22,853 nt of DNA from a virus. Below the pieces are notes generated by a model. That model saw only the letters and a list, made by a program, of their open reading frames with translations. It did no database searches and was not told the DNA's origin. Position numbers and translations under genes: made by a program. Below, piece after piece: positions 1,087-16,887 of this stretch. Position 1 is the stretch's first letter. Each line of letters starts with the position of its first letter. The stretch is taken from IMG/VR virus record IMGVR_UViG_3300007516_000166, positions 1-22,853 of that record. One strand, given 5' to 3'.

Positions 1087-1299
1087 TTACATTAGTTCAT
1101 CTCCCAGATTAGAATATAATATTCGATCATCCCAATTTAATAATACATCAGAAAGCTCGTCACTAATCATGGCGAGCATTTCTATTTTAACGAGAGGTTG
1201 TGATGGTCCCCTTCCAGTTAATATATTTTCTTCTATTAGTTTTACCTTATTAAGGATATCTTTGTGCAATTCAGAAATTACTATTTCACTTTCGTCCAT
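1087..1299 (-). CDS. Hypothetical protein (70 aa), end of GIY-YIG operon
   Basis: Small acidic protein with no recognised family. It reads as mostly helical (SEIVISELHKDILNKVKLIE, then KIEMLAMISDELSDVLLNWD). Its start overlaps the end of the GIY-YIG gene by 19 bases, consistent with co-transcription in the three-gene minus-strand island at 1087-1827. The stop abuts the convergent plus-strand gene. Function unknown; it could be a partner or regulator of the upstream nuclease. Confidence 0.65.
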   Translation of the reverse strand: MDESEIVISELHKDILNKVKLIEENILTGRGPSQPLVKIEMLAMISDELSDVLLNWDDRILYSNLGDELM

Positions 1300-1538
1300 A
1301 ATTCTTTTTTATTTATTTTACTCAATTTCTTTATTTTATATTCTTCTTTAAGTGCTTCTGATTTACAAGTCGTGACATTAGAGTACACTACAACAACTGG
1401 GCCACGTCCTCTTGTATATTTTGCACCCTTACCTGAATTATGCTTCTCGACTCTCCGAGTGAGATCGTTAGTTATCCCAGTATAGTATGTTCCATCACTG
1501 CATTCTAGTATATAGACTAGCCATTGTTTATTCAACAT
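1281..1538 (-). CDS. GIY-YIG nuclease domain protein (YhbQ/UvrC-like)
   Basis: 85 aa, the length of a stand-alone GIY-YIG domain. Residues 8-20 (VYILECSDGTYYT) with G21 form the GIY...YTG core, followed by TNDLTRRVEKHNSGKG (Arg28/Arg29 and His33-Asn34), ARYTR-like KYTRGRGP, and the helix with the catalytic Glu (EALKEEYKIKKL, Glu61 or Glu65). The spacing matches the YhbQ/URI branch rather than I-TevI-type homing enzymes, which add DNA-binding modules. The family cleaves or nicks DNA with a divalent metal. It lies in the middle of a minus-strand island inside a plus-strand block, overlapping both neighbours, which suggests acquisition as a unit. It may process phage DNA, attack host DNA or act as a minimal selfish nuclease; the sequence does not decide. 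Confidence 0.88.
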   Translation of the reverse strand: MLNKQWLVYILECSDGTYYTGITNDLTRRVEKHNSGKGAKYTRGRGPVVVVYSNVTTCKSEALKEEYKIKKLSKINKKELWTKVK

Positions 1539-1827
1539 ATCTAAGATTAGCTCTTAACGTTACGTAGAAACATAAAGTATCAGCGTTAATGTGGTCGGAC
1601 GATCTAACTGCTGCGGATAGATCGTTTTTCAATATAGATTTGACAAATGATCCAGGAAAAGTGTTAATTTCCCAAGTATTCATCATAATGCTAGTTCCAA
1701 TATTAACGATATGCTCAAATGATTCAATATTCATCAAATGTTTTTGTCTAATTAAAGTACTGTTAGTGTTTGCGTATTCCCTAACAGCAGTCTTTATTCT
1801 AGTTTCATGATCTATGTTATATTCCAT
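1528..1827 (-). CDS. Hypothetical protein (99 aa), first gene of GIY-YIG operon
   Basis: No recognised family. It appears soluble and mixed alpha/beta, with no clear motif. Its 3' end overlaps the start of the GIY-YIG gene by 11 bases, so the two are likely co-expressed. A TATAAT hexamer lies about 8 bases upstream of the ATG on the minus strand, which would give an almost leaderless message if it is a real -10 box. It diverges from the plus-strand gene at 1880 across a 52-base A/T-rich gap that probably carries both promoters. Confidence 0.65.
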   Translation of the reverse strand: MEYNIDHETRIKTAVREYANTNSTLIRQKHLMNIESFEHIVNIGTSIMMNTWEINTFPGSFVKSILKNDLSAAVRSSDHINADTLCFYVTLRANLRYVE

Positions 1828-1879
1828 ACTTGTATTATACTAACTTTACTCAAATAAATAAAATAAAATAGATGTTAAT

Positions 1880-2227
1880 ATGCGTTATATAAAATTAGAT
1901 AGATTAAACGAGGATCATGAGAATCAACTGTCTCCTGAATTATTAAGAATGACAATTGGAGAAATGTTGGTTAAAGCTGGAGAATTGGACACCCAAGGAA
2001 ATGCTGAGTATGAGGTTATCGAAGATGCATTAAAAGCAATTAGCGATTATATATTAGGAAACGGATATTCAAATGACGAGGTTAATTTTACACCAGGAGA
2101 TGGTGTTGAAGCTCCGGATGAACAAAAAGAAATAATATCAGATGAAGAGGAAGTTCCTACGTTTGATCAGGTCGCAGGTGGCAATACTGGTAAAACTAGT
2201 GGAGCTGTGGACGATTTTGAATTTTAA
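1880..2227 (+). CDS. Acidic hypothetical protein with N-terminal LNE motif
   Basis: 115 aa, no family recognised. The start MRYIKLDRLNEDHE resembles the N-termini of several small neighbours (basic residue, hydrophobic spacing, then Leu/Ile-Asn-Glu), which I interpret as a possible capsid-targeting or protease-cleavage peptide. Residues 20-60 are helical (ELLRMTIGEMLVKAGELD). The C-terminal 50 residues are acidic and low in complexity (DEQKEIISDEEEVPTFDQ) and end in DDFEF. The stop is one base from the next start. A virion-internal or scaffolding role fits the context but is inference. Confidence 0.8.
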   Translation: MRYIKLDRLNEDHENQLSPELLRMTIGEMLVKAGELDTQGNAEYEVIEDALKAISDYILGNGYSNDEVNFTPGDGVEAPDEQKEIISDEEEVPTFDQVAGGNTGKTSGAVDDFEF

Positions 2228-2228
2228 T

Positions 2229-2570
2229 ATGAATATAAAGAAATTTAACGTATTTATAAACGAAGGTATCGGTGCTATTACAATGAATAGAACACCAGTT
2301 GATAAACTAAATAATCCAAACCATAATATAGCGCAGTCTAGGCCTATACCAATGGGAGGTTCTAGCCATATGCCCGCACAATGGGGTAGAGGTCCAGGTA
2401 CTGCACAAGGTTCTAGATATGGTAGTAATCCTACTATTAAAAGTAGAGCAATGACATATAGTGAATTTATTAAAAACTATAATACATCTAAAGAATCTAC
2501 AGATGATACCGAGTGCTCAGATTGTGATTTAGCTGATGATAAAATAACGAATAACAATGGGACATATTGA
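2229..2570 (+). CDS. Putative internal head protein with FINE|G motif
   Basis: 113 aa. The ATG at 2229, one base after the upstream stop, is preferred over an in-frame start at 2142. The longer form would add 29 residues read through the coding region of the previous gene and would bury the N-terminal motif. From 2229 the protein begins MNIKKFNVFINEGIGA, very close to the T4 internal-protein leader MKTYQEFIAEA, with Ile-Asn-Glu|Gly fitting the gp21 prohead-protease rule (Leu/Ile-x-Glu). The middle is Gly/Pro/Ser-rich and probably disordered. A second similar segment, MTYSEFIKNYN, lies near residue 80, and a CSDCD pair lies near the C-terminus. The gene overlaps the next by 14 bases. Confidence 0.8.
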   Translation: MNIKKFNVFINEGIGAITMNRTPVDKLNNPNHNIAQSRPIPMGGSSHMPAQWGRGPGTAQGSRYGSNPTIKSRAMTYSEFIKNYNTSKESTDDTECSDCDLADDKITNNNGTY

Positions 2571-2850
2571 TAATTTTAAAAAATGGGGTAACAAGGTAAT
2601 TAACTATATAGAAGAACAAGAAGGAGCTCGTGATATAATGAGTGTTCCGGATGAATTCAAAGCTGAGAACGACGTAATAACACAGCATAGAAATTCTATA
2701 GTTCAGATAGAGACTAATCTTGCTACTCAGAAAAAACAACTAAATGACCTAGTTACAGCACTACAAGGTAAAATAGCCGCGAAGAATTCAGTAGACGCAA
2801 ATGCAGTAAAGACTGCTCCTGCTCCTGCTATGGTTCCACCTACTGTATAA
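2557..2850 (+). CDS. Small coiled-coil protein
   Basis: 97 aa, no family recognised. Residues 45-75 (NSIVQIETNLATQKKQLNDL) look like a short coiled coil, and the C-terminus is an Ala/Pro-rich linker (APAPAMVPP). The N-terminus MGHIDNFKKWGNKVINYIEE is only loosely like the capsid-targeting motif of its neighbours. It overlaps the previous gene by 14 bases and the next by one (TAATG), so it is embedded in a coupled run. A small virion or assembly protein is the likeliest role. Confidence 0.75.
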   Translation: MGHIDNFKKWGNKVINYIEEQEGARDIMSVPDEFKAENDVITQHRNSIVQIETNLATQKKQLNDLVTALQGKIAAKNSVDANAVKTAPAPAMVPPTV

Positions 2851-3491
2851 TGAAGAATATTAAAGCAAAATCATTTGGAGATTTTATAAATGAATCAGAA
2901 TCAATTAATGATAAAGCGGAATTACTTGCTAGTAAAATCAAAGATGCGATAAATGAAGTAGATGATAGTTTAAGTTATGAAGACTTAGCTAAGGCTATCG
3001 CTATTGTGCTTAACGATTCATACGGAAGCCATAATACAGTACCATTTTTAGATGTACTTACTGATAATGTTGATGGTGGAGACATAAACGAGGCAGAGCA
3101 AAAAGTAGTTTATAATACTAATTTTACTGGGATGGTACAGGGTGCAGTTGGAAGTATTCATAGCCAGGTTATGGCAATTGCTAAATCAATGGCGGATGAA
3201 AAGGAAGCACGTAATCCGCATAGATATAAAGTTGCGGATAAAACATCTGGAGTAGAAGAAGTAGATATAACAAGAGCATTAAATCTTATTTTTCATAGTG
3301 ATTGGAAGAATATGATAAAGGGACATCATGTTCATCAATGGGCTAAATCATGTATAGATAGAGCAACTAAACACGATGAACGATCAAATAAGAAAAATCA
3401 AAGAGCTATTAGAACTCAAAGTGGACAACAACTCGATAACTACAAAGTAGACTTAGGAACACAGGGACATAGTAGAGATCTTGGACATTAA
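2850..3491 (+). CDS. Putative prohead-packaged protein with FINE|S motif
   Basis: 213 aa, family unknown. It starts MKNIKAKSFGDFINESES. Phe-Ile-Asn-Glu|Ser resembles a capsid-targeting peptide with a gp21-type cleavage point after Glu. The body contains an acidic helical region (residues 20-70), then VYNTNFTGMVQGAVGSIHSQ and an Arg/Lys/His-rich C-terminal third (HHVHQWAKSCIDRATKHDE, then KKNQRAIRTQSGQQLDNYK) that could bind nucleic acid. No catalytic motif is evident. The ATG overlaps the previous stop by one base. Packaging with the DNA is inferred from the N-terminus and basic tail. Confidence 0.8.
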   Translation: MKNIKAKSFGDFINESESINDKAELLASKIKDAINEVDDSLSYEDLAKAIAIVLNDSYGSHNTVPFLDVLTDNVDGGDINEAEQKVVYNTNFTGMVQGAVGSIHSQVMAIAKSMADEKEARNPHRYKVADKTSGVEEVDITRALNLIFHSDWKNMIKGHHVHQWAKSCIDRATKHDERSNKKNQRAIRTQSGQQLDNYKVDLGTQGHSRDLGH

Positions 3492-3509
3492 GAAAATTAA
3501 TAAACTAAT

Positions 3510-4244
3510 ATGAGCGAAGCAGAATTAATTGCAGATATAAATGATGAGATTACATACTCTGGAATGTTACCATATTCTCTTCCAGATAAGGAGATAAAAC
3601 GTATTCTTGCGATTGATGCGGCGTATTTCTATGACAACTGGAGATATGCAATTGAATCTAAATATTTGTTACTACCAAAGTCGTTGTTTAAAACACCAGC
3701 CTTTAAAAACGGTAGACAAATACTATTACCAGACTGCGTACAATTTATGGTTGAACTAAAGGAAGCGAAAGGTGGATCAATATTTGCGTCAATTGATAGA
3801 GATTTCTCAGAAGGTAAATTCATGGGATCTGAAATATTTCTTACTCCATTCATGGGAGAGTCTATTATGTATAGAACAATCATGTTTTCATTCCTAGATT
3901 TAACCAAAGGGATGATATTAGATACTATTGCATATGACTACAATAAAAATACAAAGCTATTAGGAGTTGTCGGAAGAACACCTAAGGCTGATGCAGTAGC
4001 TAAAGTATTTAAGAAGATTGAGATTGATAAATTATATAACGATGAATTATATCAGCGTCACGTCAGAGCACACGCTAAAGTTAGACTATCACATATGTTG
4101 CAAACATTTAACTATCAACTTCCAGGAGATGTTACAATTAATTATCAAAACATGGTAGCAACAGCAGAGAAAGAAATGGAAGAAGTAAAGACTATGATAA
4201 AGGGAGAATCCACTACCGATTGGATGTTCCTCGTTCACCAATAA
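3510..4244 (+). CDS. Putative virion structural protein (neck/connector type)
   Basis: 244 aa, with the look of a conserved phage structural protein. It starts with the acidic helix MSEAELIADINDEITYSGML, followed by aromatic/Pro-rich stretches (AAYFYDNWRYAIESKYLLLP), a beta-rich middle and a C-terminal helical part ending TTDWMFLVHQ. I recall similar proteins annotated only as structural in large myoviruses but cannot assign a T4 counterpart; it is not obviously gp13, gp14 or gp15. It is larger than its neighbours, lacks the FINE motif and sits two genes upstream of the gp25-like wedge gene, which supports a head-tail or baseplate role. The leader has no Shine-Dalgarno sequence. Confidence 0.75.
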   Translation: MSEAELIADINDEITYSGMLPYSLPDKEIKRILAIDAAYFYDNWRYAIESKYLLLPKSLFKTPAFKNGRQILLPDCVQFMVELKEAKGGSIFASIDRDFSEGKFMGSEIFLTPFMGESIMYRTIMFSFLDLTKGMILDTIAYDYNKNTKLLGVVGRTPKADAVAKVFKKIEIDKLYNDELYQRHVRAHAKVRLSHMLQTFNYQLPGDVTINYQNMVATAEKEMEEVKTMIKGESTTDWMFLVHQ

Positions 4245-4259
4245 AATAAATAATATTAT

Positions 4260-4796
4260 ATGAAACGCAATATACAGACATACATTGAATTTATCAACGA
4301 AGCAAAGGAGAAAAAAGAGAAGTTTTCTGATATGCATGATAATTACATTGATACAGATTATCAATCAAGTCTGCGCGATAATCCGCAGCGATATAGAAAT
4401 GATAAATCAGGGTTAGCATTAAACATGCTTAAGTTTATATATTCAGCTGGAGAAAAAGGAAGAAAGCACGGTGAAGTACAGCGATTTTTCTATGAACATG
4501 GAGGAAAAGAAAGATCTAGAACAGATTACACACTAGATAAGACGACAAATCAGGATGCTAGAGTGACTACGAGAAGAGGATTCGACTCAGTTAAAGATAG
4601 AGGAATGGGATCTACTATGCTTAGTGGGGGAGATTATTGGGGAAGACAAACCGGTATATTAAATGCACATTGTGAAAAGAACGATAGTGGAAGATGGGTA
4701 TTAACAGATAGTAAATTGAAAAGTATGTTAGATTGGACTGATGCTCTAGATGGAGCGTCAGACAATGATTTAGAAGTTATGAAAAATTTATTTTAA
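4260..4796 (+). CDS. Putative internal head protein with T4 IP-like targeting peptide
   Basis: 178 aa. The start MKRNIQTYIEFINEAKE is the best match in the window to the T4 IPI/IPII/IPIII leader MKTYQEFIAEA: Thr-Tyr-x-Glu-Phe-Ile-x-Glu-Ala is shared. In T4 that leader targets the protein into the prohead and is removed by gp21 after Glu, and the mature protein is injected with the DNA. The rest is basic and polar (KSGLALNMLKFIYSAGEKGR, then ERSRTDYTLDKTTNQDARVT), ends with an acidic helix, and shows no known enzyme motif. It sits one base before the gp25-like gene. I infer a prohead-packaged, possibly injected protein. Confidence 0.8.
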   Translation: MKRNIQTYIEFINEAKEKKEKFSDMHDNYIDTDYQSSLRDNPQRYRNDKSGLALNMLKFIYSAGEKGRKHGEVQRFFYEHGGKERSRTDYTLDKTTNQDARVTTRRGFDSVKDRGMGSTMLSGGDYWGRQTGILNAHCEKNDSGRWVLTDSKLKSMLDWTDALDGASDNDLEVMKNLF

Positions 4797-4797
4797 T

Positions 4798-5175
4798 ATG
4801 GCAGATATCAGAGATTTTTATATGAGAGCAGACGGAGACCCTAAATATAGACCAGATCAAGTAGAAGTATACGACGAGATTGAAGCTAGTATAAATCAGG
4901 TCAAGATGACATTACTCACTAACAAGGGAGAAGTACTAGGAGAGCCAAGTTTTGGAGTTCAAGTAGAACAGTATTTATTTGAGTTTGAATTAGATCCATT
5001 TAAACTATCAGAGGATGCTAATAATCAGATTCAAAAATACGTAGGTGAAGCTAAAAAGAGAAAGATTCATGCAACTCCTATGTATATAACAGATAAACGT
5101 GATAGAAAGGTCTATGTATTACAAATAAACATAGACGGAAGACGATCTCCGTTTGCAGTATTATATGATAATTAA
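4798..5175 (+). CDS. gp25: Baseplate wedge protein, GPW/gp25 family
   Basis: 125 aa, close to T4 gp25 (132 aa). The family signature is clear: a helix ending in INQVKMTLLTNKGEVLGEP, then FGVQVEQYLFEFELDP, then a helix (SEDANNQIQKYVGEAKKRKI) and a final beta hairpin (VYVLQINIDGRRSP). The family forms part of the contractile baseplate wedge near the sheath start and is shared with type VI secretion TssE. It is the last plus-strand gene before a strong palindromic terminator. One base separates it from the preceding gene, so they are co-transcribed. Confidence 0.88.
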   Translation: MADIRDFYMRADGDPKYRPDQVEVYDEIEASINQVKMTLLTNKGEVLGEPSFGVQVEQYLFEFELDPFKLSEDANNQIQKYVGEAKKRKIHATPMYITDKRDRKVYVLQINIDGRRSPFAVLYDN

Positions 5176-8545: not shown

Positions 8546-9691
8546 TTATACAAATAATAAATCAAACTCAGACTCCGAGAAGTAACCTATTATTAGATCA
8601 TTAAATTCGTCAAATGTCATTTTATTATTAACCGCAATGTAAAAGTTATAAAGGTTATTAATATCCTTTATTTTATTAATTTGTTTACGCTCACTTGGAT
8701 ATTGATTACGTAGATCCCCTATTAGCTTAGACCACATAAATACCTTATATCCTTCCTTTAATAATTTGAATGTTTCCTTCTTTCCGGCATCATCATTATC
8801 GAAGAGTATACGTGCATTCTTTTTTGATATTAAGGTACCAAGTATATTCTTACTTTTAGTTACGCCAGTGGTCGCGATTGCATTCCTAAGGAACATGGCG
8901 TCTATTTGGCCTTCTAACACTATTATTGGTAGGTTAAATTGTATATTTAGTATGTTATAATAACTATTAATAATATCAATCTTAACTATTGTTGCCTCAT
9001 CGGATTTAGGAATTAGACCATTCTTTATAAACTGTGAGTAATTCTTAATATCATACTTGGGACCAGGATAATCATCACTTATTCGTCTGATTGATAAACC
9101 AAGTACGCGATCGGATCTATAATCAATATTAAAAATATACATCTTATCTTCTCTATTGTCATAATAACAGGACTTTTCGAATGCAGGAAGATCCATTAGA
9201 TTTCTGCCTCTAACATATATTCCAATAGGAGAATCAATGGGAGCATCTTTACATGGAGTTAAGAAGAATCGGTCAGCGAGTTGTTTGAAGTTTATTAATA
9301 TGTCTTTTACCTTAGGGTTCATTAGAAATTCTATGAGGGCTCCTCGTTTTGTTCCAGTCTCAACCTTTATATTACCGGCGTCACTTGATACATTTGGAAT
9401 AGGTAGTGAATACTTAGCAGCAAAATCTGTTATGAATCTAGTAAGCTTTGTGAACTTTAAACATCCGTCATTGAAACATTTATAAGTAGCAGTTTTAATA
9501 TATAAATTACCTCTCTTTTTTCCGGAATCTGTTTGTGAATCACCACAGTATGGACATGCAAAGTTAAGTTTATCATCGTCCTCATTATTAATTGACTGCT
9601 TAAACCTATTCCCTGGAAATGTTTTCTTGAGAACATCATTTACAAAATCAACAACTAGATATGTATTTTTTGTTTCTATAATATTATGCAT
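8546..9691 (-). CDS. gp61: DNA primase, gp61-like (zinc finger plus Toprim)
   Basis: 381 aa, near T4 gp61 (342 aa). An N-terminal zinc-binding domain has Cys46, Cys49, Cys72 and Cys77 (CPYCGDSQTDSGKKRG ... KCFNDGC). A Toprim-type catalytic region follows with EGQIDAMFL (first acidic motif, near residue 255) and RILFDNDDAGKKE (near 295). The family makes short RNA primers for lagging-strand synthesis with the replicative helicase. It overlaps the end of the polymerase gene by 8 bases, so the two are co-transcribed and probably coupled. No helicase domain is fused, unlike T7 gp4. Confidence 0.88.
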   Translation of the reverse strand: MHNIIETKNTYLVVDFVNDVLKKTFPGNRFKQSINNEDDDKLNFACPYCGDSQTDSGKKRGNLYIKTATYKCFNDGCLKFTKLTRFITDFAAKYSLPIPNVSSDAGNIKVETGTKRGALIEFLMNPKVKDILINFKQLADRFFLTPCKDAPIDSPIGIYVRGRNLMDLPAFEKSCYYDNREDKMYIFNIDYRSDRVLGLSIRRISDDYPGPKYDIKNYSQFIKNGLIPKSDEATIVKIDIINSYYNILNIQFNLPIIVLEGQIDAMFLRNAIATTGVTKSKNILGTLISKKNARILFDNDDAGKKETFKLLKEGYKVFMWSKLIGDLRNQYPSERKQINKIKDINNLYNFYIAVNNKMTFDEFNDLIIGYFSESEFDLLFV

Positions 9692-11246
9692 TTGATGCTA
9701 TTTTGTTATCGCGGTCAATGGCGCGCTGTTGTTTATCGGCCTGTCTTGCTATCGCGTGTTGTAGCTTCTCCTCGGACTTTCTAGTTTTTTCAAGTTCCCT
9801 TTCTACAGCAAGTAGATCCGATGCTATTATTCCAGCTGGACTAAACGCTCCAATTCCAAGCTTTTTTGATACTCTATTAATAAACGGTTTTAAGTTTTTA
9901 TTAATTATAAATGTGGTGTTTAACCCGTATCTTGTTATAAGTTGAAGGTATTCATCAAAGTCTTCTTCTGATACATCTTGATCCGGATCTCCAATAATAT
10001 CCCAGAATTTTTCTGGAACTTCTTCATGTGCTAATGTTGCTTCACATATTACATGATATGGATACATTTGATCTCGTGTCATTGGAGTATTAGTATTTGA
10101 TGTTTTAAATATTACAGATCTTCTCAATTTTTGGTCAATTGTATTAAGACCGATTGCTTTTAATATTCTATTAATAGGCTCGACAATTAGAATAAAAAAC
10201 TGCTGATCTAAATCTAGTTCAGGAATAATCTTAGTTGGATATTGACCAGGATTATATGCAAATAAGTCAATACCAAATTCGTTTGGTTTACAATATAGCA
10301 TTTTGTATTTTGACCCCTGTCGTATTCTAGGATATCTTCCTTCTAGATTATTCTTAAGTATTAGATAATTATGATGAACTACTGCCTTTGGGCCATTTGC
10401 GGCTCCCTTCTTTAGTACACAGTTTGCCTCACTTGTTATATACTTATCATATTGCCTAAGATTAAAACTTTGAGAGAATTCGTCAGGATGTAGTGTTAGG
10501 AATTCAGACTTTACTGTTTCAATCAGCGGAATCAAATCATTTTCTAAATCAATGTCAACTCCATTTTCTAGAAAGTATTTAATGAAATCAGTTTGATGTT
10601 TTCTTGCCCATTCCGGATATGACGCTTTAATTGGTTCTAATCCTTTAATTAATAAATACCTATCAGACTCATTATATAGTTCCTCCTTGGGATTAGGTTC
10701 ATATGATACCTTGAGCACATAGTTTTTCTTCTTTATCCATACTGCATTTTGTGCAATAAGTTCAAGTTTAAATGTCTGCCTATTGTCAGTATTAAACATC
10801 TTAGACCATTTTTCAAAAGCAGAATCATAAAATTCTCCAATTCTAAACTTATCAATTTCAATACATATTTTAATGCCTTCATCTTCTGTATAATCAAGGC
10901 CCTCAATTGATTTAAGCGCTGGTTCAAAATTAACATATGTAGAATCAGTATCTGTGTATATGGCTATAATAATGTTAGGATCTATCATATTAATAACGTG
11001 ATCAGATATTCCTAAATGTTGGTGAAGTTCAGTGTCTAGATGCCATCTATGTTTAAAATAAAAGTCAATCGCTTTATTTGCGAATTTAATCATGTCTTGC
11101 CCCTGGAGTGTAATAGACTGTGCTATTTCCGTATTATAAAAATAAAACCATTTATTTCCAAATGCTCCGTATATCGAATTAATTAAAATCTTGATCGCTC
11201 CTTGTTTAAGGGACAAATGTTTGATTAATTTTGACTTATCTTCCAT
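9684..11246 (-). CDS. gp43: DNA polymerase family B, C-terminal half only (split gp43)
   Basis: 520 aa. The protein starts almost directly at motif B: K19-ILI-N23-S24-I-Y26-G27, then the palm motif C Y-T-D99-T-D101-S102, then thumb-type sequence. The 3'-5' exonuclease domain and motif A (DFxSLYP), which precede motif B in every complete family-B enzyme, are missing. In-frame stops lie within a few codons upstream of the ATG at 11246, and the next gene upstream is on the other strand, so the N-terminal half must be encoded elsewhere. The C-terminus carries a helical charged extension (ELEKTRKSEEKLQHAIARQ). No intein-C sequence precedes the motif, so non-covalent assembly of two subunits is likelier than splicing. 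Split gene 43 is known in some T4-like Aeromonas phages. Confidence 0.88.
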   Translation of the reverse strand: MEDKSKLIKHLSLKQGAIKILINSIYGAFGNKWFYFYNTEIAQSITLQGQDMIKFANKAIDFYFKHRWHLDTELHQHLGISDHVINMIDPNIIIAIYTDTDSTYVNFEPALKSIEGLDYTEDEGIKICIEIDKFRIGEFYDSAFEKWSKMFNTDNRQTFKLELIAQNAVWIKKKNYVLKVSYEPNPKEELYNESDRYLLIKGLEPIKASYPEWARKHQTDFIKYFLENGVDIDLENDLIPLIETVKSEFLTLHPDEFSQSFNLRQYDKYITSEANCVLKKGAANGPKAVVHHNYLILKNNLEGRYPRIRQGSKYKMLYCKPNEFGIDLFAYNPGQYPTKIIPELDLDQQFFILIVEPINRILKAIGLNTIDQKLRRSVIFKTSNTNTPMTRDQMYPYHVICEATLAHEEVPEKFWDIIGDPDQDVSEEDFDEYLQLITRYGLNTTFIINKNLKPFINRVSKKLGIGAFSPAGIIASDLLAVERELEKTRKSEEKLQHAIARQADKQQRAIDRDNKIASNA

Positions 11247-12729: not shown

Positions 12730-13078
12730 TTAAACTGGAGGAGTAAAATCCTCCAGTTTAACAATCTTACTATTTAAAATTTCAAACTCCTGATCATTAT
12801 AAATATCAAGCCTAACATTTGAATGCTTAACTGAATATCCACTTAGATCATCGATGATGTCCCATATGATTACGACGTTCTTACCAACTAAGAATCTCAT
12901 TCCACGTCCAACCGCTTGTCTAATAGTTATTTCGGCTTTAGTTGATTCTGCAAATATAATGTGATGAACATTTTTACAGTCAATTCCAGTAGCAAAGGTT
13001 CCGTCAATACGAGGCAACTATAATAGCTGCCTCGTTCTTGTCCTCCGTTATGTTTTTATGAAAAATTGGTTTCGCCAT
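12730..13078 (-). CDS. uvsW: UvsW helicase, C-terminal piece (needs +1 frame change)
   Basis: The frame opened by ATG at 13078 reads a 15-residue leader MAKPIFHKNITEDKN, then EAA and the conserved IIVASY, and stops at UGA (13006-13004). The sequence resumes in the +1 frame as GTFATGIDCKNVHHIIFA, then ITIRQAVGRGMRFLVGK (motif VI) and VVIIWDIIDDL, to the stop at 12730. T4 UvsW has IIIVASYGVFSTGI here, so four extra bases (TGAC, 13003-13006) sit between the Tyr and Gly codons. Without recoding, only a TTG start at 13017 would give a 95-aa product, MPRIDGTFATGI.... The piece could be made by +1 frameshifting, by the TTG start, or not at all (a pseudogene). The ATG overlaps the end of the HNH gene by 23 bases. 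Confidence 0.7.
12731..12760. terminator. Hairpin between convergent phoH and uvsW genes
   Basis: A perfect 12-bp stem (TAAACTGGAGGA/TCCTCCAGTTTA) with a 6-base loop. It overlaps the last codons and stop of the UvsW C-terminal piece, so the stem's sequence encodes Pro-Pro-Val-stop. Neither strand has a long U-tract after it, so termination may be partial; protection of 3' ends is another possible role. Confidence 0.6.
13010..13034 (-). other. Strong RNA hairpin one codon before the uvsW UGA
   Basis: On the minus-strand RNA an 11-bp stem (CGAGGCAGCUA / UAGUUGCCUCG) closes a UUA loop. All pairs are Watson-Crick except one G-U wobble, so the pairing is better in this mRNA than in the opposite strand. 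The 3' arm ends immediately before UAU-UGA-C. The right arm encodes the conserved VAS of UvsW and the left arm lies in the non-conserved leader. Confidence 0.7.
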
Positions 13079-14033
13079 ATTTAGTATAATTAAATTTCCA
13101 ACCTATAGTATTAGCTACAGATTCTTTATTTTTTACATTATTAGATATTACAGGTTTTCCTGAGTTTCTAAATTTATTAATCAATCCTCTATTAAAATTA
13201 TGTGTCTTAACCATTAATCCTAATCCGTTAAATTCATGTATATTTCCAGATGGTGAGATTGCTATTACCTTACGATTAGATGTCTTTCGATTATTCATAT
13301 TTTCTCTAAATGCAGGATCCTTCCATTTTTGTTTAATTGATTCGCTAGCACTTGCTCGTTTAATCGGATCTTTATTAACAATGTTCATTGTGTTATTAAA
13401 TCGCTGCTTATCTATAGGATTCATATTATCCCACATTTTACTAGATCGATTTGACATCTCGTTTGGATTATTCTTAAAGTATTCAGTCATTTGTTTACTT
13501 TTAATATTTCTCCGGTCAGATGTCCAACTGTTCTTATTAGATATGCAACGCTCAATATATTGAGATTCAGTTAGATTATCCCACATTAATTGGGATCTCC
13601 TAGATCTTTCGATGCTACTTAATGATTTAATATGCTCAGATCTATCATCACAAAATTTCTTATATTTAACGGGATTGTTCTTTAATTTAATCCATCCTTT
13701 CTTAGCAGCTTTAGATATTAATTCAGTATTCTTAGATGTTTGACTTTTCATAAAATTCAAAGGACGTAATGTTGCTCTATTTATATATGCGTTTGCTAAT
13801 AACTCATGTGAAAAAACATGATCACTATATAATAAATTAACTATATTCCAGCTATCGTTCTTATAATCTTTGAATAATGATCTAGGCAGAATATGATGAT
13901 TTTCTGAATATCCGTCACATGTGCTTACATAATTTAGTGTAAAATCTAAATATTCATTTAGAAACTCAATTGAATCAGGTTCTCCTAATTCAGTGATCAT
14001 TATATCTATAATTTTATTTTTCATATCAGTCAC
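13056..14033 (-). CDS. HNH homing endonuclease interrupting uvsW (second break)
   Basis: 325 aa. The HNH core is near the N-terminus: His46-His47 (ENHHILPRSLF), Asn63 (WNIVNLLYSDH) and His72/His76 (DHVFSHELL). After it come about five short basic repeats built around Trp and Asn-Pro (GWIKLKNNPVKYKKF, LMWDNLTESQYIER, EYFKNNPNEM, MWDNMNPIDKQ, KWKDPAFRENM), typical of DNA-recognition modules in phage HNH homing enzymes. A NUMOD1-like segment ends the protein (AISPSGNIHEFNGLGLMV). The gene is free-standing, lying 18 bases after the stop of the UvsW middle piece and ending within the leader of the C-terminal piece. Such enzymes cut intron-less or insert-less alleles to spread their own gene. The surrounding spacers are far too short for a group I intron. 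Confidence 0.88.
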   Translation of the reverse strand: MTDMKNKIIDIMITELGEPDSIEFLNEYLDFTLNYVSTCDGYSENHHILPRSLFKDYKNDSWNIVNLLYSDHVFSHELLANAYINRATLRPLNFMKSQTSKNTELISKAAKKGWIKLKNNPVKYKKFCDDRSEHIKSLSSIERSRRSQLMWDNLTESQYIERCISNKNSWTSDRRNIKSKQMTEYFKNNPNEMSNRSSKMWDNMNPIDKQRFNNTMNIVNKDPIKRASASESIKQKWKDPAFRENMNNRKTSNRKVIAISPSGNIHEFNGLGLMVKTHNFNRGLINKFRNSGKPVISNNVKNKESVANTIGWKFNYTKYGETNFS

Positions 14034-14051: not shown

Positions 14052-14888
14052 TTATTTATTAGACTCTATCCATGAATTAGCAACATCGTCATCTAATGTT
14101 ATATCTTTTGCTAATTTAACTTTTTTATTAGTTAGTGTAACTCTCTTAAATTGACTAACTTTAATTTCAATATCATCCGCAAACCTAAGTATTGTTTTTG
14201 CGCTAGGTTCTTCCATCACATTTTTTGCGTCTTCCCGATCTGGGGTTTCAACTCCTCCATCAATATAAAAAGTATTTGGGTTCCATTCTTTTATTGCATT
14301 GTGAATTCTAAATCCATACTCATTCTTAACATCTGAAAATAGTATCAATGTGTTCTTTCCAAATTTCTTAGTAATTCTACTTATGAATTCGATTCTCTCA
14401 TTAGAGTCAAATATAATTTCCTTCTCTATTTCAAGCATACGTTTACCGAATTCCATAGGATCTCTGAATTGATCCTTTACTTTCTTACGTAACGTCTTGT
14501 TAGTTTGTATCTTTACATACTCGGCTATTCGTGGGTCATTCATATCATACTCGAGGAACACCTGCTTGATTTTAATATCAGGAGAGTAATCATTGTCCAT
14601 TAGGAATTTAGCACTAAGTGTCATAACAAGTGGACCAGTTCTTTCTTGCATTGTATAGAAGTCAGAATACTCTAAATCAATTTTCATTGTTCCAGATAAT
14701 CCAAGTTTATATTCCCAGTTTACACATGATGCTAAGATATCTCCAATTGACTGCCCACGTGCCTTGTGACAATTCGATACGCTAATTCCATTAGCTATAT
14801 AATTATGGTTAAGTCCATCCTCTGATTTTATTCTAAGATTATATACATCACCTACATAATCTATTTTATTGATTGATTTAATTCTCAT
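14052..14888 (-). CDS. uvsW: C-intein fused to UvsW middle piece with Hint-like tail
   Basis: 278 aa in three parts. Residues 1-39 are a split-intein C fragment: MRIKSINKIDYVGDVYNLRI, then HNYIANGISVSN with terminal Asn39. The +1 residue is Cys40, giving CHKARGQS, which completes the DECH box started in the upstream gene. Residues 40-233 are UvsW: KLGLSGTMK (motif III), NTLILFSDVKNEYG (motif IV region), FYIDGGVETPDRED, then NVMEEPSAKTI. Residues 234-278 (LRFADDIEIKVSQFKRVTL to SWIESNK) are not UvsW. They resemble the block-B end of the N-intein at 15739-16032 but lack its Thr and His. ATG overlaps the previous stop as ATGA. After trans-splicing the product is UvsW up to motif V. Confidence 0.92.
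   Translation of the reverse strand: MRIKSINKIDYVGDVYNLRIKSEDGLNHNYIANGISVSNCHKARGQSIGDILASCVNWEYKLGLSGTMKIDLEYSDFYTMQERTGPLVMTLSAKFLMDNDYSPDIKIKQVFLEYDMNDPRIAEYVKIQTNKTLRKKVKDQFRDPMEFGKRMLEIEKEIIFDSNERIEFISRITKKFGKNTLILFSDVKNEYGFRIHNAIKEWNPNTFYIDGGVETPDREDAKNVMEEPSAKTILRFADDIEIKVSQFKRVTLTNKKVKLAKDITLDDDVANSWIESNK
14772..14888 (-). other. Split intein, C-terminal fragment (39 aa)
   Basis: Block F (VYNLRIKSEDGLNHNYIANG) and block G (GISVSN|C) are clear. The terminal Asn and the +1 Cys needed for trans-splicing are present. The penultimate residue is Ser, not the usual His. With the 98-aa N fragment the total is 137 aa, the size of an endonuclease-free mini-intein. Confidence 0.92.
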
Positions 14889-15697
14889 ATAAATTGTTTT
14901 AATAATCTCTTTAACCTATCTTTTTCTAATTGATTTTCTAATATTTCATTACTGTAATTATCTTTGAACCATTTACCTGAGATGACTTTGAATTTAAAAT
15001 CATTTAATTTCGCCCAATCTTTTGCTGCGCTGAACTTTATTTTATTAACTCGAGTCTCCTTTAAACTATCCGGTTTTATCTCATATAATATTTTATTATT
15101 AATATCGACAAAATCCATTACGTAATTATGAAATTCACCGTCTATAAAATATGGAACTCTTACTTTTTCGTATAATAAATTTGGATTGACAATTTGAAAA
15201 TATGCATCCCATGATGATCGACATTTAACTATAATATCCTTTCCGTTTTGGTTAATATTAACCTTGCATCTGGATTTGGCCCAGCTATTAGTTACACATG
15301 GAGTCCATTCTCCGTTTGATATTTTAGCCTTTAGTGTATTAGAAATCTTCCGGTTTGCAGCATGTTTAGTTTCATCGGACATCTTATGACTATTGTTATT
15401 ATCGCCAATCATATTATCAGATCTCCATTTATATAAACAATATCTAGAGCAGAAATTTTTATATCCTTGTCCAAAATTTTGAAACGTATTACTATTTCCA
15501 CATCTGCAATATTTACCATTATTATCTAATAGGTGGTCGTATATATTTTGCTCTGTTATAATAGATATAGGGATGTTTATATTTTCCTTATTTAACCAAT
15601 ATATATATTTATCGTCTTTACACTTAAATCCATTCATCATAATGAAATATTTTCTATTTACTTTAATGTATTCGTAGAGTTCTAAGTTGCTCATCAC
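14885..15697 (-). CDS. PD-(D/E)XK homing-endonuclease-like gene between split-intein halves
   Basis: 270 aa. A treble-clef-like zinc site (Cys64, Cys66, Cys83, Cys87; CRCGNSN ... NFCSRYC) is followed by a NUMOD3-like stretch (GDNNNSHKMSDETKHAANRK) and a nuclease domain: Arg160-S-S-Trp163-Asp164, Asp195 (VMDFVDINNK), Glu206-I-Lys208 (ILYEIKPDS), then KFSAAKDWAKLNDFKFKVI. This is the PD-(D/E)XK/Vsr-like core and closely parallels gp4 in this window. Its position, between N- and C-intein genes of one host protein, matches the 'fractured gene' arrangement known from marine metagenomes, where a Vsr-related endonuclease lies between split-intein halves. It overlaps the C-intein gene by 4 bases and has an exact late-promoter box upstream. 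Confidence 0.85.
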   Translation of the reverse strand: MMSNLELYEYIKVNRKYFIMMNGFKCKDDKYIYWLNKENINIPISIITEQNIYDHLLDNNGKYCRCGNSNTFQNFGQGYKNFCSRYCLYKWRSDNMIGDNNNSHKMSDETKHAANRKISNTLKAKISNGEWTPCVTNSWAKSRCKVNINQNGKDIIVKCRSSWDAYFQIVNPNLLYEKVRVPYFIDGEFHNYVMDFVDINNKILYEIKPDSLKETRVNKIKFSAAKDWAKLNDFKFKVISGKWFKDNYSNEILENQLEKDRLKRLLKQFI

Positions 15698-15712
15698 TTA
15701 TGATCTTTATTT

Positions 15713-15720
15713 TATTTATA
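15713..15720 (-). promoter_or_regulatory. T4-type late promoter before the split-intein endonuclease
   Basis: An exact TATAAATA on the minus strand, 15 bases upstream of the ATG at 15697 and just after the stop of the N-intein gene. It would give the endonuclease and C-intein/UvsW piece their own late transcript. T4 intron endonucleases also use late promoters. A chance match is possible in A/T-rich DNA. Confidence 0.45.
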
Positions 15721-15735
15721 ATAGATTCATAAGAA

Positions 15736-16887
15736 TTAATCATAAATTGATAGAATGTCATCATCTAATGTAAGAAGATCAACTCTTTTATATTCTCCGG
15801 ATATTAATTTAACTTTATGGTTGCCCGTAATTTTTACTGTTTCATTATTATCTAATTCAAGTTCATACATTTGATTATTCTTTGATAAATTTTTATGTAT
15901 ATAATCAACTTCTCTATTCTCAATATCAAATGTATTATCATTAACAGTTTTTACAATATCTCCTTTTTGTATATCGCATATCTTTACAATATCTCCATTT
16001 GATTTAGTAATCATCATATCTGGGTGTAAACATTCATCTACACATACAACAGAGAAATCTGAGCATATATCCATGATCTTAGCGTTTGCTAGTTTACGCT
16101 TCAGGTTCATTAGATCAGTTTGACGCTTCTCCTCTTCTCCTTTCTTAATACCTTTCATGATTAAGTTCCCGAGTTTATTATCTAAACATTTAGGAACAAG
16201 ATTAAGCATACTTTGATACGTTGTAATTAACATATCACATTTAGCAAATTTATCTGCGTCGAATTCTCCTTTCTTTCCTCCAACACAATGAATATTCCAA
16301 TCAACTAATCCGTTAGAATATTGATGGAATGCCTTAGCCGTTTGATTAACTAGACTTACATTAGGTACAATCAGAAGCATCTTTGATTTCTTGTTAATTG
16401 TTCCTACATATTTTAGATAAGAAGCATATGTATAGAATATAGATGTTTTCCCACTCGATGTTGCGAGCTCCTCACAGCAAAACTTATACTTAAGTGCACG
16501 ATATGCTCCTTCAAATTGATAATCTCTTGGATAGAATGGTTCACCCTTGTCAGTAAGTATACCTTTATATAAAGACTTGACGAATTTCTCATAATTATGT
16601 CTATTTAGTTTTAGGTCGAGCATTGGTTTTATTGCATCAACATCAGTAGGTATGTCATAATTAGCGGTGAAATTAGCTAATTCTTTCCATAACCCGATTG
16701 GAATTGTCCATTCCTTTGTCATAAAATGATCCATACCATCCCATGTTCCATTTTCAACAGCCTTATTAAAGTCCGCATCCTTTGACTTCTTTTTAAAGAA
16801 GCTATAAAGATAATCTCTATGTGAATTTAATTCATACGATACGACTTTAAGATTCTTTAAGTCATCCGTGACTTCTAATCTAATCAT
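15736..16887 (-). CDS. uvsW: UvsW helicase N-terminal piece fused to N-intein
   Basis: 383 aa. Residues 1-285 are the N-terminal and first RecA-like domain of UvsW: FYPRDYQFEGAYRALKY (Q-motif region), ATSSGKTS (motif I, 142-149), LLIVPNVSLVNQ (Ia), ITTYQSML (Ib) and VVCVDE (281-285, first part of motif II). At Cys286 the sequence changes to an intein N fragment of 98 aa ending at the stop. UvsW is an ATP-dependent SF2 branch-migration helicase that unwinds recombination intermediates and R-loops and shifts T4 from origin- to recombination-dependent replication. Unspliced, this piece has half of the DECH box and should be inactive. It starts directly after the UvsY stop; T4 likewise places uvsY next to uvsW. 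Confidence 0.93.
   Translation of the reverse strand: MIRLEVTDDLKNLKVVSYELNSHRDYLYSFFKKKSKDADFNKAVENGTWDGMDHFMTKEWTIPIGLWKELANFTANYDIPTDVDAIKPMLDLKLNRHNYEKFVKSLYKGILTDKGEPFYPRDYQFEGAYRALKYKFCCEELATSSGKTSIFYTYASYLKYVGTINKKSKMLLIVPNVSLVNQTAKAFHQYSNGLVDWNIHCVGGKKGEFDADKFAKCDMLITTYQSMLNLVPKCLDNKLGNLIMKGIKKGEEEKRQTDLMNLKRKLANAKIMDICSDFSVVCVDECLHPDMMITKSNGDIVKICDIQKGDIVKTVNDNTFDIENREVDYIHKNLSKNNQMYELELDNNETVKITGNHKVKLISGEYKRVDLLTLDDDILSIYD
15739..16032 (-). other. Split intein, N-terminal fragment (98 aa)
   Basis: Block A is CLHPDMMITKSNGDIVKICD followed by IQKGDIVKT, with Cys1 as the nucleophile. Block B is YELELDNNETVKITGNHKVK, with the conserved Thr and His (TGNH). The fragment ends RVDLLTLDDDILSIYD. 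The insertion point lies between Asp-Glu and Cys-His of UvsW motif II, a conserved active-site position typical for inteins. Confidence 0.93.

Follow-up and report, generated by a model that had tools for sequence, protein, structure and literature searches.

The virus record IMGVR_UViG_3300007516_000166 from IMG/VR was analysed over its entire length of 22,853 bases, hereafter the window, with the focus on uvsW, the repair helicase gene on its minus strand. As read from the sequence, uvsW of this T4-like virus is broken twice, by two different homing-nuclease elements, and lies in three pieces. The features below are listed in the order of transcription, all on the minus strand; other loci used for comparison carry L numbers.

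16033–16887, minus strand: UvsW-N extein, residues 1–285, N domain and motif I to mid motif II, ending VVCVDE (Pfam DEAD 4e-10, UvsW_N 2e-5, phrog_16259, phrog_16 DNA helicase)
15739–16032, minus strand: N-intein of 98 residues with Cys1 and block B TGNH (Hint, Intein_splicing and TIGR01445 profiles; alignment with S16, PM2, Lak-B2, L004, L027 and L101)
14885–15697, minus strand: endonuclease open reading frame (ORF) of the first break (site 1), PD-(D/E)XK, TnsA-like (PF08722 8.7e-6, phrog_15427 3e-26; 79% identity to the L004 copy)
14772–14888, minus strand: C-intein of 39 residues, ending VSN before Cys+1 (TIGR01443; multi-copy alignment)
14208–14771, minus strand: UvsW middle extein, from CHKARG to DREDAKNVMEE (phrog_9690, phrog_16; positions 280–476 of the UvsW hidden Markov model)
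14055–14207, minus strand: C-terminal tail of 51 residues, probably the vestigial second half of an N-intein (hhalign, AlphaFold, structure alignment, and the ratio of nonsynonymous to synonymous substitution rates, dN/dS)
13056–14033, minus strand: HNH homing-endonuclease ORF of the second break (site 2), starting at GTG 14033 or ATG 14024 (phrog_12434 HNH endonuclease 6e-20, phrog_655 homing endonuclease 1e-11)
13007–13078, minus strand: leader ORF of 24 codons, MAKPIFHKNITEDKNEAAIIVASY, its ATG overlapping the HNH gene (like leaders in about 15 distinct alleles)
13010–13034, minus strand: hairpin of 11 bp with a loop of 3 nucleotides (nt), directly 5' of a UAU codon (synonymous shuffle p 0.002, z -3.6)
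13003–13006, minus strand: coding gap of 4 nt, UGAC (a stop and one base), relative to uninterrupted uvsW (against L007 and L005; the same in L003, L004, L006 and others)
12733–13002, minus strand: UvsW C piece, beginning GTFATGIDCK, motifs V and VI to the end (Helicase_C 0.001, phrog_9690 4e-20; dN/dS 0.10 against L006)

A preliminary description, made from the letters alone, had the reading frames and coordinates of the three ORFs at site 1 right: ORF 15736–16887 comprises the UvsW-N extein and the N-intein, ORF 14052–14888 comprises the C-intein, the middle extein and the tail, and the stop codon of the nuclease gene between them overlaps the ATG of the latter. The exteins on both sides align to UvsW, and profile matches to the UvsW N domain, the DEAD/DEAH core and the helicase C domain are collinear with T4 UvsW; the intact UvsW of the relative L007 matches PDB 2OCA at E 1e-35. 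That description took UvsW to be rebuilt by the split intein. A split intein does lie in motif II, but ligation there would reach only to just before motif V, plus the 51-residue tail. The ORF with the C-extein is not the end of uvsW: it matches UvsW only to model position 476, just before motif V, tail and stop follow its residue 227, and a separate stretch beyond the HNH gene codes for the final 90 residues of UvsW. Since motifs V and VI are on this third piece, ligation at site 1 alone would leave UvsW incomplete. Both breaks also occur in the uvsW of L101 (8466–12618) and L027 (1841–5283).

At site 1, VVCVDE runs directly into Cys1 of the N-intein (ORF residue 286, nt 16032), and the terminal Asn of the C-intein is followed by the +1 residue, the Cys of CHKARGQS, in the frames originally proposed. 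Profile searches agree with the assignment, both halves matching above curated cut-offs: the N-intein to Pfam Hint (4e-7; 30.3 bits, cut-off 29.7) and TIGR01445 (5e-6; 27.3 bits, cut-off 24.5), and the C-intein to TIGR01443 (17.8 bits, cut-off 15.6); a further match of the N-intein to Intein_splicing (1.7e-5) lies below the cut-off of that profile. All seven diverged split-intein copies share an unchanged Cys1, TGNH block, terminal Asn and Cys+1; the six other N-inteins are 43 to 86% identical to that of the window. Between the window and L004, dN/dS is 0.10 and 0.17 for the intein halves and 0.08 for the site-1 nuclease, with purifying selection on both intein halves. The L027 nuclease survives as a decayed remnant of 92 residues beside two intact intein halves. 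On these sequence grounds we regard trans-splicing at site 1 as very likely.

The nuclease gene was correctly placed between the intein halves, inside the motif II (DEAH/DECH) box, but its description as Vsr-related did not hold: it matches the TnsA-like PD-(D/E)XK family PF08722 and phrog_15427, and profile searches of Pfam, PHROGs and NCBIfam gave no match to a Vsr family. Uninterrupted alleles exist in five relatives (L005, L006, L007, L009 and L010), which read V(V/L)(C/G)VDEAHK straight through the proposed junction. Joined exteins would give DECH, with Cys at +1 where the local empty alleles, being DEAH, have Ala; DECH without an intein does occur in T4 (by alignment) and in L017. As the uninterrupted alleles of the lineage are DEAH, the insertion arrived with Cys at +1.

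Fractured genes with split inteins (gp41-1, NrdJ-1, IMPDH-1) were reportedly described by Dassa et al. in 2009, with a free-standing nuclease that is said to be Vsr-like. The window resembles that type in having intein halves on separate ORFs, a nuclease gene between them, and a break that falls within a conserved active-site motif, in a gene for replication or repair; it differs in its host gene, uvsW, and in the TnsA-like PD-(D/E)XK nuclease, as opposed to the Vsr-like one of the Dassa type. The preliminary description knew of no split intein in uvsW. No paper in the literature searched names both 'split intein' and 'uvsW', but the same fracture is found in deposited genomes of the cultured Salmonella S16-like phages and Proteus PM2 and of Prevotella Lak-B, where it is annotated as a helicase and hypothetical proteins. 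Judged by sequence, the uvsW split intein is already present in databases, though unremarked there. In S16, STP4-a and SEA1, PM2 and Lak-B it sits at the same position between DE and CH with a related nuclease in between; unlike the window, these genes have no break at motif V, their N-inteins are 43–48% identical to that of the window, and they are not annotated as inteins. In one of these loci, L135 (Lak-B2, 1666–5000), an open frame through the UvsW N part and the nuclease towards the split intein requires TAG to be decoded as an amino acid (code 15), so that unusual decoding and protein splicing would meet in one gene.

The middle ORF ends in 51 residues (PSAKTILRF to WIESNK) without a UvsW match, and this tail is present in all split alleles examined, including those without a coding gap and those without the HNH gene. 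It aligns with positions 51–94 of the site-1 N-inteins (hhalign probability 95.6, E 1.2e-8), and its AlphaFold model (predicted local distance difference test, pLDDT, about 90) aligns to residues about 45–98 of solved inteins such as Npu DnaE and MchDnaB-1 with Z of 4.5–4.7 and a root-mean-square deviation of 1.7–2.2 in compact matches. The first half of an intein, with Cys1 and block A, is missing, and the block-B His is replaced; dN/dS of the tail is about 0.2. A Pfam search with 14 tails returned a single weak Hint-type match. Several observations weigh against an intein origin: the structural matches are modest (Z up to 4.7), a PDB sequence search with the tail profile found no intein and gave weak matches to ataxin AXH (E 0.055), and Foldseek with both tail models returned only E > 1, though inteins recur among the top rows. 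The tail is likely a fossil N-intein that is still selected as protein, as sequence and model suggest; because the PDB sequence search missed inteins, this descent is likely, not proven. It perhaps helps the pieces to hold together, and would show what a split intein may become once splicing ceases. Most of the HNH gene is lost in L006 (3780–4010) and L037 (1607–2062), and the gene is absent from L113 (12409–12432) and L111; tail, hairpin and gap are kept in all four.

Beyond the HNH gene, the window leader ends IIVASY followed by UGA, after which GTFATGID is encoded out of frame. In uninterrupted alleles TAT (Tyr) is directly followed by GGA (Gly); the window has TGAC inserted between the two. 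About 15 distinct alleles of this gap cassette turned up in viral contigs when the HNH protein or the hairpin pattern served as query. Their leaders comprise about 18–26 codons, start M(A)K, MAR or MAQ, and end in a UvsW-type motif V strand (IIVASY, VVIVASY, KVLVASY, GVVLVASY or ILIGSL), and GT(F/L/T)STG or a near variant follows downstream of the gap. The gap is UGAC in nine alleles, 7 nt in L017, L103, L125, L149, L027, L028 and L037, 6 nt in L029 (in-frame UAG UAA, then GGA), and 11 nt in L147 and L157; L157 resumes with GGA ACA TTC, so that its gap is TGAATAAATCG. Only if the gap is skipped does every gap allele give the native V-A-S-Y-G-T-F-S-T-G. As the gaps set the downstream frame to +1, 0 or +2, no single frameshift explains them all, whereas skipping does.

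In all 15 of the gap alleles a perfect hairpin, with a stem of 9–14 bp and a loop of 3–5 nt, immediately precedes the last leader codon; none of the 13 controls has one at that position. The controls were intact uvsW genes, among them those of the large-phage records LR756500, LR745206 and LR756502, and the gapless splits L033, L035, L039 and LIMEstone1. Tested against synonymous shuffles of the same peptide, the hairpin gave p values from 0.001 to 0.013 in each gap allele, and stem pairs are changed on both sides in 28 of 166 cells (e.g., GAGGCA/UGCCUC, GAGGCU/AGCCUC and GGCGCA/UGCGUC). The triplet before the resumed codon resembles the last leader codon, the presumed take-off codon, at 20 of 30 positions (p 4e-4, in a test devised after the data had been seen). 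In the same post hoc comparison the match is exact in L157 (UCG to UCG), within the same Leu box in L028 and L037 (CUU to CUG/CUA), at two of three positions in most alleles, and at one of three in L017. The same kind of leader, with M(A)KPT or MAR starts found here too, runs straight into the C piece in the four gapless split relatives. One of these, L039 (3979–5350), has an HNH remnant followed by unrelated ORFs of 216 and 78 residues, and shows only a weaker hairpin remnant at its gapless C piece. Scanning the viral contigs with the hairpin pattern returned 17 loci outside uvsW, none with a coding leader and a resumed frame, and a scan with a further alignment gave no additional gap alleles. 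Among isolate phages, HNH searches found LIMEstone-type gapless splits only and no cultured phage with a gap.

The C piece has a dN/dS of 0.10 between the window and L006 and of 0.03 between L101 and L113, with dS saturated in other pairs; purifying selection acts on every uvsW piece. The site-2 cassettes of the window and L006 are near-identical over a stretch that opens about 100 nt before the tail and closes 11 nt past the gap, apart from the HNH deletion in L006, while their uvsW flanks are mostly 62–88% identical in 60-nt bins. A near-identical cassette amid diverged flanks points to recent movement by homing, with a cut near the gap. As the gap sits where the HNH nuclease most likely cuts, it would protect its carrier; such protection has likewise been proposed for the gap of T4 gene 60 (PMC5009743).

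From these features we infer the following course of expression. UvsW-N with its N-intein and the C-intein with UvsW-middle would be made separately, associate and trans-splice, leaving the junction peptide VVCVDECHKARG and a UvsW chain that stops short of motif V; the TnsA-like gene separating the two halves would be a present or former mobility gene. At site 2, an HNH homing cassette would have split uvsW again, just before motif V, and the tail of the middle piece would once have been part of an N-intein whose catalytic half has since been lost. The C piece has its own start codon, the 24-codon leader and the 4-nt gap that begins with UGA. A ribosome on the leader would leave the proposed take-off codon UAU (13007–13009) at the stop, aided by the hairpin refolding directly behind it, and land just before GGA, joining IIVASY to GTFATGID in the fusion peptide IIVASYGTFATG. 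The C piece would then assemble non-covalently with the spliced chain. On the sequence evidence, some form of recoding is likely to operate at site 2, and a short bypass is, with reasonable confidence, the best version of it; the account as a whole, a three-piece UvsW from a spliced N-middle chain and a bypass-made C piece, we consider probable.

Some details fit bypassing less well. In L028 and L037 the presumed take-off codon is not immediately followed by a stop, GAC as the window's landing triplet fits UAU at two positions only, and the hairpin pair counts are not independent events because the gap alleles are related by horizontal transfer. The C piece could instead be a separate protein, started after leader termination in or just after the hairpin, at UUG of GUUGCC or AUU of UAUUGA. 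An in-frame UUG is indeed present in the 3' arm of the hairpin in the window and many alleles (LPRIDGTFATG), and the leader stop lies close to such a restart site. However, in L029 and L149 the interval from the last stop to the conserved motif contains no AUG, GUG, UUG, CUG or AUU, and restart would yield a protein without the motif V strand, a segment with conserved coding: the leader keeps the local lineage's own UvsW sequence (IIVASY or GVVLVASY), which restart would not need, and the window and L004 differ only synonymously over EAAIIVASY. Lacking a start codon in two alleles and at the cost of the motif V strand, restart is unlikely as a general answer. A plain +1 programmed frameshift at UAU UGA C, in the style of the release factor 2 (RF2) gene and adding an Asp between Tyr and Gly, was rejected in view of L029, L147 and L157. 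It would account for gaps of 4 and 7 nt and agree with both the UGA C context and a stimulator placed upstream, but the 6-nt gap (frame 0, two stops) and the 11-nt gaps (+2) would need another event, tRNA-Tyr moving from UAU to AUU would mispair, and the 7-nt gaps would put two foreign residues (EV, ED, EN or RC) into motif V; we consider it improbable.

The remaining alternatives concern the joining of the pieces and whether there is a working helicase at all. The site-1 intein halves might only associate, with UvsW working as a non-covalent complex, as is the case for the split polymerase and NrdA proteins of related phages, which function unligated (PMC2988022); in the window's lineage, moreover, Ser replaces His as the penultimate residue of the intein, which counts against splicing. 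Yet Cys1, block B, the terminal Asn and Cys+1 are invariant in the seven copies, whereas at site 2 the splicing residues are gone and block A is lost altogether, a loss that illustrates the fate of an intein without selection for splicing, and association without splicing thus appears quite improbable. Decay of uvsW would account for stops and two foreign genes within one gene and for the HNH deletions in L006, L037 and L113, but it is very hard to reconcile with purifying selection on all pieces and with a gap and hairpin that recur in about 15 distinct alleles. A frame break through assembly error was rejected in view of other contigs that agree at the junction; these assemblies, which may come from related samples, show one mismatch to the window in 13 kb. 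An HNH gene inside a self-splicing intron, whose removal from the RNA would join the middle piece to the C piece, as proposed for I-LimI, follows the LIMEstone1 record and paper, which speak of a putative intron (PMC3296691). The tail is conserved as protein, however, the C piece is equipped with a start codon of its own, and the frame break would persist after such splicing. Rfam gave no intron or known RNA element in the window at gathering, only chance-level matches at E up to 5 in the uvsW stretch, and its intron models matched none of eight related loci; the LIMEstone1 insertion matched no intron model either. An intron is the least credible of these explanations.

The closest parallel to the proposed bypass at site 2 is the T4 gene 39-mobA-gene 60 region, where a topoisomerase gene has been divided by an HNH gene. 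Ribosomes bypass a stop-led gap of 50 nt in the downstream gene, aided by the nascent peptide, by one stem-loop on the 5' side and another at the take-off site, and by matched GGA codons (PMC3014915, PMC11194080). In both, an HNH gene splits a replication gene, a stop-led gap lies tens of codons past the start, a stem-loop stands upstream, and the native protein results only with a skip. Site 2 differs in its shorter gap (4–11 nt), a hairpin that ends at the take-off codon, a usually imperfect landing codon, a leader of about 18–26 codons, and its occurrence in uvsW and in many viruses instead of one phage. The likeness lies in the gap and the 5' stem-loop; gene 60 also uses a KKYK nascent-peptide signal and an A-site stem-loop. 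The position of the site-2 hairpin is the one from which the gene 60 5' stem-loop would work, by folding in the ribosome's wake and so favouring a slide in the forward direction. I-LimI in the uvsW of Dickeya phage LIMEstone1, which its authors describe as inserted within an intron (PMC3296691), has the same insertion point, the same intein-like tail on the N piece and the same MKPT leader on the C piece; in contrast to site 2 it has neither gap nor hairpin. The nrdA/mobE locus of Aeromonas phage Aeh1 resembles uvsW in that an HNH nuclease has fragmented a gene without abolishing its function; as described, it has neither recoding nor a split intein in the same gene (PMC2988022).

A 2010 review of T4 treats bypassing as apparently unique to gene 60 and raises the question of its use by further genes in T4-like phages (PMC3014915); uvsW, if the proposed reading is true, would be such a gene. 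Recoding would then be tied to homing nucleases a second time. It seems fairly probable that bypass is a recurring partner of homing nucleases, in that an HNH cassette has split uvsW in many T4-like viruses, leaving a mostly stop-led gap of 4–11 nt and an upstream hairpin, and the helicase survives by short ribosome hops; the window, L101 and L027 would in addition need split-intein trans-splicing. A single repair protein would owe its integrity to protein splicing across one break and to recoding and assembly across the other. The about 15 natural variants, with four gap lengths, four kinds of take-off codon and gapless sisters, form a comparative system for the requirements of bypassing.

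Further genes bear on fragmentation and nucleases elsewhere. The DNA polymerase gp43 appears split in the window's lineage: its C half (9684–11246, minus strand) starts at about SLRQGAIKILINSIYGAFG in all relatives (L004, L005, L006, L007 and L020), and the N half lies outside the window. In Vibrio phage 1.244.A (L132, 2488–7929), DNA polymerase B is in several pieces beside an HNH gene related to the site-2 nuclease. Within the window, an ORF of 85 residues (1281–1538, minus strand) encodes a GIY-YIG nuclease (Pfam 5.6e-20), possibly another homing nuclease, and a tandem GAAGAAGACGAA-type repeat at the contig end (1–84) codes for a stretch rich in Glu and Asp.

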